Source: Selenomonas sp.
Lineage (GTDB): Bacteria; Bacillota; Negativicutes; Selenomonadales; Selenomonadaceae
Direction: 5' to 3'
Assembly: GCA_018052705.1 (NCBI GenBank)
Contig: JAGPMW010000008.1
Location: forward strand, 1 to 64,000
DNA length: 64,000 bases
Of the stretch, positions 37,159-61,862 are shown in pieces. Within the stretch, counting starts at the first letter, position 1; every line of letters starts with the position of its first letter. The notes under the pieces are model-generated. The model had not been told where the DNA came from. It searched no databases and saw nothing but the letters and a program-made list of their open reading frames with translations. The translations under genes were made by a program, and so were the position numbers.

Positions 37159-37206
37159 GCCGGAAATTTGCCGGCTGGATCGATATTATATTTAGGAGTA
37201 GGATCA

Positions 37207-38394
37207 ATGATTAGTGTAACAAAACTTTTATTTGCCAGAGAATATTTCGGAGATAGTCTGCGTTATACGAAGACTGCTCATAGCATGCGCAATGGTGCCG
37301 GTGAGGGGATGGGGCCAGTGGTGGTCTGGAACTCAACCAAGACTTGTAATCTTAAATGCATCCATTGCTATATGAAATCTGACGCGCAGAAATATAAGAA
37401 TGAGCTGACAACGGATGAGGCCAAGAAATTCATTGATGACCTGGCTGAATTCCATGTGCCGGTGCTGCTGTTTTCGGGCGGTGAACCGCTGATCCGCCCG
37501 GATTTTTTCGAGCTTGCTGAGTATGCACAAAAGGCAGGGGTCCGTCCGACGCTGTCGACGAATGGAACGCTGATTACCCGTGAGGTTGCTCAGCAGATCA
37601 AAGACATTGGTGTGGGCTATGTCGGTATTTCACTGGACGGGCTCAAGGATGTCAACGATAAGTTTCGCGGGGCTGAGGGCGCCTATGAAAAGGCCATGAA
37701 GGGCATTGAGAACTGCGTAGCCGTAGGACAGCGGGTTGGCCTGCGTTTTACGATCAATCACCATAATATACAGGAACTGGACCGGATCTTTGACTTCATC
37801 GAGGAAGAGCAGATCAACCGGGTCTGCTTCTATCATCTGGTTTATTCCGGCCGTGGTGAGGCAATGGTCAATCAGGATGTTACGCCAGCCGAATCCCGTC
37901 AGGCGATGGATACGATCATCCGCCGGACCAGGGACTTCGAGGAGCGCGGTCTGGAAAAAGAGATTCTGACCGTTGACAATCACTGTGACGGTGTCTACAT
38001 GTATCTGAAGGCACTCGCGGCAGGGGAGGATGAGACGGCGGCCCAGATCAAGAAGTTCATCTCGATGAATGGTGGCAATCGTTCCGGCATTGCCTTCGGT
38101 GAGGTTGATCCGCTGGGGTATGTCCATCCAGATCAGTTTACGCAGCATCACACCTTTGGCAATGTGCGGGAGCGCAAGTTCGGCGATATCTGGTCGGATA
38201 CCTCTAATCCAATCATGGCTGGACTCAAGGACCGTAAACCGCTGCTTAAGGGGCGCTGTGCAAAATGCAGGTTCCTTGACAACTGCAACGGCAACTTCCG
38301 GACGCGGGCTGAGGCCTGCACGGGCGATTTTTGGGAGTCGGACCCGTCCTGCTATCTGACGGATGAGGAAATCGGCTTGACGGAGGGGAAATAA
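37207..38394 (+). CDS. Radical SAM protein NirJ1/AhbC-like
   Basis: 395 residues. The radical SAM cluster motif CNLKCIHC is at residues 47-54, FSGGEPL follows, and a second Cys cluster lies near the C-terminus (CAKCRFLDNCNGNFRTRAEAC). This matches the NirJ1 group of Firmicutes, related to AhbC, which removes acetate side chains from didecarboxysiroheme, and to heme d1 NirJ. ATG 37207 follows TTAGGAGTAGG. The next gene starts directly at its stop. With NirJ2 it probably works in siroheme-derived heme synthesis; ahbA/B are not in view. Confidence 0.87.
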   Translation: MISVTKLLFAREYFGDSLRYTKTAHSMRNGAGEGMGPVVVWNSTKTCNLKCIHCYMKSDAQKYKNELTTDEAKKFIDDLAEFHVPVLLFSGGEPLIRPDFFELAEYAQKAGVRPTLSTNGTLITREVAQQIKDIGVGYVGISLDGLKDVNDKFRGAEGAYEKAMKGIENCVAVGQRVGLRFTINHHNIQELDRIFDFIEEEQINRVCFYHLVYSGRGEAMVNQDVTPAESRQAMDTIIRRTRDFEERGLEKEILTVDNHCDGVYMYLKALAAGEDETAAQIKKFISMNGGNRSGIAFGEVDPLGYVHPDQFTQHHTFGNVRERKFGDIWSDTSNPIMAGLKDRKPLLKGRCAKCRFLDNCNGNFRTRAEACTGDFWESDPSCYLTDEEIGLTEGK

Positions 38395-59894: not shown

Positions 59895-59909
59895 TGATAA
59901 TATTTATCA
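59895..59909. promoter_or_regulatory. Fur box of the DUF3793 gene
   Basis: TGATAATATTTATCA matches the 7-1-7 Fur consensus TGATAATnATTATCA at all but one position, just after the predicted start site. Confidence 0.7.
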
Positions 59910-59929: not shown

Positions 59930-60496
59930 ATGAATAGGGAAGAATTTGAACAATTAATGGGAATGTGTTGTGCACCAACGTTTGCGGGGCTGAAATCAGG
60001 CAGTCTGATTTCTTTTCCCAAGAATAGATTCGCCAATGTTGATCTGCTTTTGGAAGAATATGAGCCCTGTTTTCACTGCAAAGGGATTTCTATCATGTCT
60101 ATGGTAGACAATCCGCGGTATCGAGTTGACTTTTTTTATCGGCCTGCAGCCTTGAGTCGATTGCTGGAAGCATCTGGTGCAAAAGATATCTTAAAGAAAT
60201 CAGGCTATCCGTTAGAAAGTACGCTGCATGAAAAGTTAAGTTGCCTGCGGATGAGAATGTCGCAAAATAACGGATTTCCACATGAGATTGGCTTATTTCT
60301 GGGGTATCCACCGGATGATGTCCGTGGCTTTATTGAACATCAGGGCAAGGATTTTCTCTTTTGTGGTTATTGGAAAGTTTATGCGAACGAGAAGATAGCA
60401 CGCGAGCTGTTTCAATGTTATACTCAATGTACCGAGAGATTTTGTTCCAAACTGCAGTGCGGCGTTCCCATTCAGGAGTTACTGCAGGCGATTTGA
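59930..60496 (+). CDS. DUF3793 family protein, predicted Fur-regulated
   Basis: 188 residues. CAPTFAGLKSGSLIS near the N-terminus and HEIGLFLGYPPDDVRGFIEHQGKDFLFCGYWKVYAN are DUF3793 hallmarks. The family often lies beside flavodoxin in anaerobic Firmicutes, as here; function unknown, with conserved cysteines (CC at 13-14, CFHC at 48-51). GGAGGTCGAGG precedes the ATG. The Fur box upstream predicts induction under iron limitation. Confidence 0.85.
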   Translation: MNREEFEQLMGMCCAPTFAGLKSGSLISFPKNRFANVDLLLEEYEPCFHCKGISIMSMVDNPRYRVDFFYRPAALSRLLEASGAKDILKKSGYPLESTLHEKLSCLRMRMSQNNGFPHEIGLFLGYPPDDVRGFIEHQGKDFLFCGYWKVYANEKIARELFQCYTQCTERFCSKLQCGVPIQELLQAI

Positions 60497-60575: not shown

Positions 60576-61010
60576 TCAGAGCAGACTTTTAGCAAAAGCA
60601 GCACCTAACTGGCTGCATGCTGATAAATCATCCTTTTTGGGACTGTTCTCTATGGCAAGGCCATCATTAAAGAGTTTGGCGCCGGCTTTGCGCGTGCGGT
60701 CAGCCCAGAGTTTCATCCAGGCTCCACCGCCCCAGCCATAGGAGCCGAAAAGTACAACTGGCACATTTTTGATATGTTTTTCTGCTTCTGCAAAAAAGGG
60801 CTCAAATGAGGATTCTTCTAATACCTCGTCGCCCATAGCGGGACAGCCAAAGGCAAAACCGTCGAAATCCTTGATGTCAGCTGCCGTGAATTGTTCTACT
60901 TCAAAGCATTGCGCGTCGGCGCCGCTCTGCTTCATTCCTTCCAGAATAGCCGTTGCCATTTGCTCCGTGTTGCCTGTGCCTGACCAGTAAACGATGGCTA
61001 ATTTGTTCAT
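60576..61010 (-). CDS. Flavodoxin
   Basis: 144 residues. The FMN phosphate loop is YWSGTGNTEQMA at residues 8-19, and LFGSYGWGGGAWM gives the isoalloxazine loop. Acidic, short-chain type. Flavodoxin replaces ferredoxin when iron is scarce. ATG 61010 has a perfect AGGAGG. Its promoter (TTGTAA-17-TATAAT) overlaps a 14-bp palindrome at 61087. Confidence 0.95.
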   Translation of the reverse strand: MNKLAIVYWSGTGNTEQMATAILEGMKQSGADAQCFEVEQFTAADIKDFDGFAFGCPAMGDEVLEESSFEPFFAEAEKHIKNVPVVLFGSYGWGGGAWMKLWADRTRKAGAKLFNDGLAIENSPKKDDLSACSQLGAAFAKSLL

Positions 61011-61136: not shown

Positions 61137-61165
61137 TTGACAATCATTATCAATGATGTTATATT
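61137..61165 (+). promoter_or_regulatory. Promoter with embedded Fur box
   Basis: TTGACA (61137-61142), 17-base spacer, TATATT (61160-61165). TGACAATCATTATCA (61138-61152) matches the Fur consensus TGATAATnATTATCA at all but one position and covers the -35. Confidence 0.75.
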
Positions 61166-61171
61166 ATAAAA

Positions 61172-61258
61172 GAATTCAATAAACCATTTCAGTTTATCCC
61201 TCCTAACCATATAATACACACGAAAAAAGACCGCGTTGCTCATACGTCGGTCTTTTTT
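61172..61258 (+). ncRNA. Predicted Fur-controlled small RNA (~87 nt)
   Basis: No open frame fits between the promoter and the terminator. The RNA would have a 5' hairpin (ATAAAC 61179-61184 with GTTTAT 61192-61197), a CU-rich unpaired segment CCCTCCTAACC (61198-61208) complementary to Shine-Dalgarno sequences, an A/C-rich linker, and an intrinsic terminator with six U residues. This is the layout of iron-sparing sRNAs such as FsrA, with which I see no direct homology. Confidence 0.65.
61223..61258. terminator. Terminator of the predicted small RNA
   Basis: AAAAAAGACCG/CGGTCTTTTTT, 11-bp stem with A and T tracts. Confidence 0.9.
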
Positions 61259-61368
61259 GGTAGGTTGTTGTTTGGAGATACTAACGTTGTAACGTTCAGG
61301 GATAGTCTGCTAAAATCAAATTATTGGCGGCACTTGCCGATAAATTCACTTCATCAGTAATATCGAAA

Positions 61369-61838: not shown

Positions 61839-61862
61839 CCAATCTACTGGGGGATGACAGCA

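Follow-up and report, generated by a model that had tools for sequence, protein, structure and literature searches.

A stretch of 64,000 nucleotides of Selenomonas DNA (the window), from a genome of 2.17 Mb, contains at positions 61172-61258 of the + strand what is very probably a Fur-controlled, trans-acting small RNA of the iron-sparing kind represented by FsrA and RyhB; Fur binding, transcription, repression and the targets of this particular copy are inferred. The RNA belongs to a family absent from Rfam, which we rate as new and, by inference, as one of the iron-sparing class of sRNAs. At the level of sequence, the analysis establishes its parts, their conservation, the covariation of its terminator and its complementarity to the translation starts of iron proteins. 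Less certain, and likewise inferred, is which targets are regulated by the window copy and which by the canonical copy in the same genome.

The predicted non-coding transcript, about 87 nt long, was delimited by promoter spacing and by its terminator; it contains no start codon and matches the covariance model of the family over 61190-61258. It comprises a 5' hairpin (AUAAAC/GUUUAU, 61179-61197), standing where the family has a GGCUUU/AAAGCU hairpin, an unpaired pairing segment, CCCUCCUAACCAUAUAAUACACA (61198-61220), and an intrinsic terminator hairpin followed by a U run (61223-61258), whose loop, UGCUCAU (61237-61243), is invariant in the family. The pairing segment consists of an anti-Shine-Dalgarno (anti-SD) part, CCCTCCTAACC (61198-61208), found exactly where the sequence-only reading that preceded this analysis had located it, and a 3' part, AUAUAAUACACA (61209-61220), identical to that of the family. 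The same reading had described an ORF-free unit of about 87 nt made of a hairpin, an unpaired segment and a terminator; folding agrees with this layout, which recurs in 22 of 22 Selenomonas genomes, and the fold of 61172-61260 has a z-score of -4.7, with none of 200 shuffles being equally stable. Judged from the DNA alone, the RNA is thus a short, self-terminated, stand-alone unit, as members of this class are.

Its putative promoter, the top promoter-like site of the region, is of the sigma-70 type and matches the consensus at 11 of 12 positions (61137-61165, + strand; TTGACA at 61137-61142, a 17-nt spacer and TATATT at 61160-61165). Overlapping the -35 element is a Fur box, TGATAATNATTATCA (that is, TGACAATCATTATCA; 61138-61152, + strand), with one mismatch to the 7-1-7 consensus, and so the promoter with a near-consensus Fur box that had been proposed earlier is indeed present. 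Only two Fur 7-1-7 sites with at most one mismatch occur in the whole window. The other, also with a single mismatch, lies at 59895-59909, upstream of a DUF3793 gene (59930-60496, + strand). Among 60 distinct copies of the family, 59 carry a Fur-like box (at least 10/14) over the -35 element, and the spacing from box to -10 is constant in nearly all copies; as a measure of chance, 4.4% of random 150-mers score 11/14. A Fur box in the sRNA's own promoter, characteristic of the class, is therefore evident from sequence, without binding data.

Related stretches were detected by blastn in many genomes of the genus, sharing a core, GGCUUUCGUUAAAGCUCUCCUAAAAUAUAAUACACA, and the terminator with its loop, CUGCUCAU. 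A covariance model (R1), built from ten relatives with the window sequence excluded, found matches in all 22 Selenomonas genomes and in 113 of 151 sampled Selenomonadaceae genomes (22 of 30 genera), with up to about 6-7 clear copies in a single genome (G002). Nearly all matches in a sample of the class fell in Selenomonadaceae, and in a sample of the phylum weak matches (32.8-36.7 bits) turned up in no more than 3 of the 196 genomes from outside the Negativicutes. The window copy was recovered by this window-free model at 34.9 bits (genome-wide E=2e-4), so that the covariance search suggested by the sequence-only reading led both back to the locus and to a family. Since 3 of 196 control genomes reach 32.8-36.7 bits, this score is not decisive alone; membership rests on a match at the predicted place together with the Fur box, the identical AUAUAAUACACA, a complete terminator and its identical UGCUCAU loop. 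Relatives retain the promoter, the Fur box, the pairing segment and the terminator, whereas their loss would have counted against the original proposal. The terminator stem covaries: among 33 distinct aligned sequences, 13 of its 15 base pairs show changes on both sides (109 both-side cells compared with 26.5 in shuffles, a count made somewhat favourable by an alignment fitted to the structure), while the loop UGCUCAU remains unchanged.

The pairing segment differs in some genera, reading CUCCUAAAUACAAUACACA in one (g3) and CUCCUAAGAUAUAAUACACA in another (g11). Four matches (L173, L174, L175 and L176) have a different 5' part but retain the terminator, with a loop of the GCUCAU type; perhaps they represent a further kind of sRNA that arose from the family. 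S. ruminantium TAM6421 has another copy, without annotation, on its plasmid pSRC1; there (L368, 3001-3590) it adjoins a gene for a C_GCAxxG protein, a family of which other members are predicted targets. Neither the window copy nor the canonical copies reached the gathering score of any sRNA family in Rfam 15, and relaxing the threshold to E<=10 brought up nothing beyond chance matches. No description of such an RNA was found in the literature on Selenomonas or Negativicutes, of which few subscription papers were covered; the keyword-matched passages of a study listing Negativicutes motifs describe the cis-regulatory motifs gltD, ldh2, ilvD and potE (PMC8632094).

A predicted target lies in the window itself. 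The gene nirJ1 (37207-38391, + strand), encoding a radical SAM protein of heme/heme d1 biosynthesis (TIGR04054 rSAM_NirJ1, 698 bits, above cut-off), has TTTAGGAGTAGG ahead of its ATG at 37207 and a predicted pairing site, TATTATATTTAGGAG, at 37184-37198 (+ strand) in its translation start. With the canonical segment of the family this start forms a duplex of -18.5 kcal/mol and ranks first in a background of 206 SD-bearing starts, drawn from loci that had not been selected for targets (mean -10.2, sd 2.7; the runner-up reaches -17.9). The window copy's own segment reaches -16.4 and ranks 20th of the 206. The suggestion that the SD at 37207 is a local target is supported for the canonical segment; for the window copy in particular, generic SD pairing is all that speaks for NirJ1, and the attribution was not upheld. 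The NirJ1 site is kept across 21 Selenomonas genomes despite shifting sequence and spacing (for example TGTGTATTGTGTTTTAGGAG), with duplexes of -18 or better in 19 of the 21 and up to -30.2 kcal/mol. For many genomes, no shuffle of the segment that kept its anti-SD part equalled the native pairing in 300 trials; the excess over shuffles is absent in two genomes (L267 and L286).

An exact search for the segment complement, TATTTTAGGAG, in 22 genomes, with a sample of the sites read out and their genes identified by Pfam, extended the predicted targets well beyond NirJ1. The translation starts at these sampled sites are dominated by iron proteins: rubredoxin, three types of rubrerythrin, a 4Fe-4S ferredoxin, [FeFe]-hydrogenase, a DUF362/4Fe-4S protein, a DHODB-type Fe-S reductase subunit, a NUBPL/Mrp iron-transfer ATPase, ThiC, a B12/radical SAM protein, C_GCAxxG proteins, a fumarate-reductase-like flavoprotein and SdhC. 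Sites were also found upstream of non-iron genes (MFS transporters, PTS IIA, the glyoxalase family, Lgt), generally with weaker energies. For most targets the extended match beats shuffles that preserve the anti-SD part. The start of SdhC, TTATTTTAGGAGGTAYAGAATG, hardly varies among 21 genomes, but it pairs over a short stretch (11 contiguous pairs), with no clear excess over shuffles. In the window's own genome, where target lists came from pattern searches only, sites at sdhC, rubrerythrin (-20.3), hemB and thiC are mixed with unrelated genes, and the targets pair less strongly than those of relatives.

The heptamer AUGAGCA, the exact complement of the UGCUCAU loop, stands at the start codon of a rubrerythrin gene and of the [FeFe]-hydrogenase gene (L298, L331, L325); none of the 206 background genes starts in this way. 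A tentative extension, which we regard as speculative, is that the RNA makes two contacts, the unpaired segment on the SD and the UGCUCAU loop on the start-codon AUGAGCA of some targets, and that paralogues like the window copy evolved shifted target sets, giving a many-copy system that tunes both dose and target choice.

The complementarity to iron-protein starts expected of such an RNA is clear for the canonical segment of the family and less so for the window copy's own. The canonical copy of the same genome scores 99.1 bits (G000:C19:49773-49850, model R1) and sits between a methyltransferase gene and a convergent MFS gene. Compared with it, the window copy, by sequence a diverged paralogue of the multi-copy family, carries CC where the canonical pairing segment reads AA, and its 5' hairpin is different. 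No close relative of the window copy was found, and the closest relative of the genome (G020) has the canonical copy with no model match at its flavodoxin locus, which makes the window copy look lineage-specific. As it pairs more with GGAGGG starts and is less specific for NirJ1, it may be a retargeted or a dose-adding paralogue. A stronger version of this thought, that the window copy, while genuinely a Fur-regulated sRNA, has been retargeted by its CCCUCC/CC changes to GGAGGG starts, unlike the canonical copy, remains possible but is doubtful: the strongest background duplexes of the window segment do fall mostly on GGAGGG starts, yet this segment still pairs well with the genome's own rubrerythrin start (-22.2), and its 3' half is unchanged.

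The window copy lies next to a flavodoxin gene (60579-61010, - strand; Pfam Flavodoxin_1), transcribed divergently from it. Flavodoxin is an iron-sparing substitute for ferredoxin, and gene and sRNA probably share a Fur-controlled intergenic region. The Fur box and promoter might then mainly serve the flavodoxin gene, with the sRNA-like stretch being a decaying paralogue, a pseudogene of the canonical copy. We consider this improbable. The flavodoxin gene does have a promoter-like site of its own (TTGTAA-17-TATAAT, 61113-61085) and the window copy is strongly diverged (34.9 bits, as against 99.1 for the canonical copy), but the Fur box sits exactly on the sRNA's -35 element with the spacing seen in other copies, and the hairpin, the unpaired segment, AUAUAAUACACA, the UGCUCAU loop and the terminator are all intact, unlike the outcome of random decay; a box shared with flavodoxin is moreover compatible with an sRNA. 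The reading that the RNA acts in cis, as leader or attenuator for a gene that follows it, which the terminal intrinsic terminator and the co-directional downstream gene of some copies could have indicated, was rejected on gene orientation, as only convergent tRNA genes follow the window copy (the next + strand gene begins at 61854), the nearest downstream gene lies on the opposite strand in 24 of the 50 copies with a downstream gene seen, and no gene follows the family consistently.

Several further features of this neighborhood were recorded. A copy of the sRNA lies just 3' of flavodoxin in five relatives (L034, L038, L041, L043 and L049). Flavodoxin as a constant neighbor of the sRNA was nonetheless rejected, since few relatives share the arrangement and the sRNA is missing from the vicinity of most Selenomonas flavodoxin loci. 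A DUF3793-like frame in relatives continues straight into a flavodoxin gene on the same strand, whereas the flavodoxin gene of the window is inverted. Identity between the window flavodoxin and its counterparts in the genus is only 57-68%, compared with 88-96% for NirJ1, and the flavodoxin/sRNA locus may therefore have been replaced or acquired. Positions 1-1750 of the window hold a tandem pair of 5S rRNA genes and a long tRNA cluster.

With the stand-alone, trans-acting sRNA remaining the preferred reading, the following mechanism is proposed. Iron-loaded Fur would repress the RNA at 61172-61258; at low iron Fur would leave the -35 box, and the RNA would be made and end at its own terminator. 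Its segment (CUCCUAA..AUAUAAUACACA) is predicted to pair with the SD and the bases just upstream of it in mRNAs of iron-containing or heme-related proteins, putatively NirJ1, fumarate reductase/SdhC, rubrerythrins, rubredoxin, ferredoxin, hydrogenase and others. Such pairing would block ribosome binding and spare iron, while the neighboring flavodoxin would replace ferredoxin.

Iron-sparing sRNAs have been characterized mainly in Proteobacteria, Bacillus, Staphylococcus and Mycobacterium. That the present RNA is an independent member of the RyhB/FsrA class, as first surmised, is supported by its conserved parts and its complementarity to iron-protein starts, without transcript data. FsrA of Bacillus subtilis is under Fur repression and uses a C-rich motif to bind the Shine-Dalgarno sequence (PMC9410917); the Selenomonas RNA resembles it in these predicted properties and in its predicted iron-enzyme targets, but is unlike it in sequence and structure, is multi-copy and has a predicted pairing that reaches about 15 nt beyond the SD on the upstream side. 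IsrR of staphylococci is a Fur-controlled non-coding RNA whose unpaired C-rich regions act on iron-protein targets, including Fe-S enzymes (PMC9410917), and it has three stem-loops, three C-rich regions and two Fur boxes where the Selenomonas RNA has a single hairpin, a single segment and a single box. RyhB, PrrF1-2 and NrrF of Proteobacteria share the function class, are duplicated in some species (PMC9410917) and include a repressor of sdhCDAB, NrrF (PMC5586341); no sequence relation between them and the Selenomonas RNA was found at Rfam thresholds, and the predicted target set is that of a fermenting anaerobe (hydrogenase, rubrerythrin, NirJ1). The known iron-sparing sRNAs FsrA, RyhB, PrrF and IsrR are themselves mutually unrelated (PMC9410917).

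If the proposal is true, the Negativicutes hold a further, apparently independent solution to iron sparing, spread across a dominant rumen and gut family and supported by comparative evidence for sRNA targets that is unusually clear. The target list, with hydrogenase, ferredoxin, rubredoxin, rubrerythrin, fumarate reductase and NirJ1 of the heme pathway, is typical of a fermenting anaerobe, and it yields a testable model in which the amount of iron available could determine how hydrogen and propionate are metabolized in the rumen.
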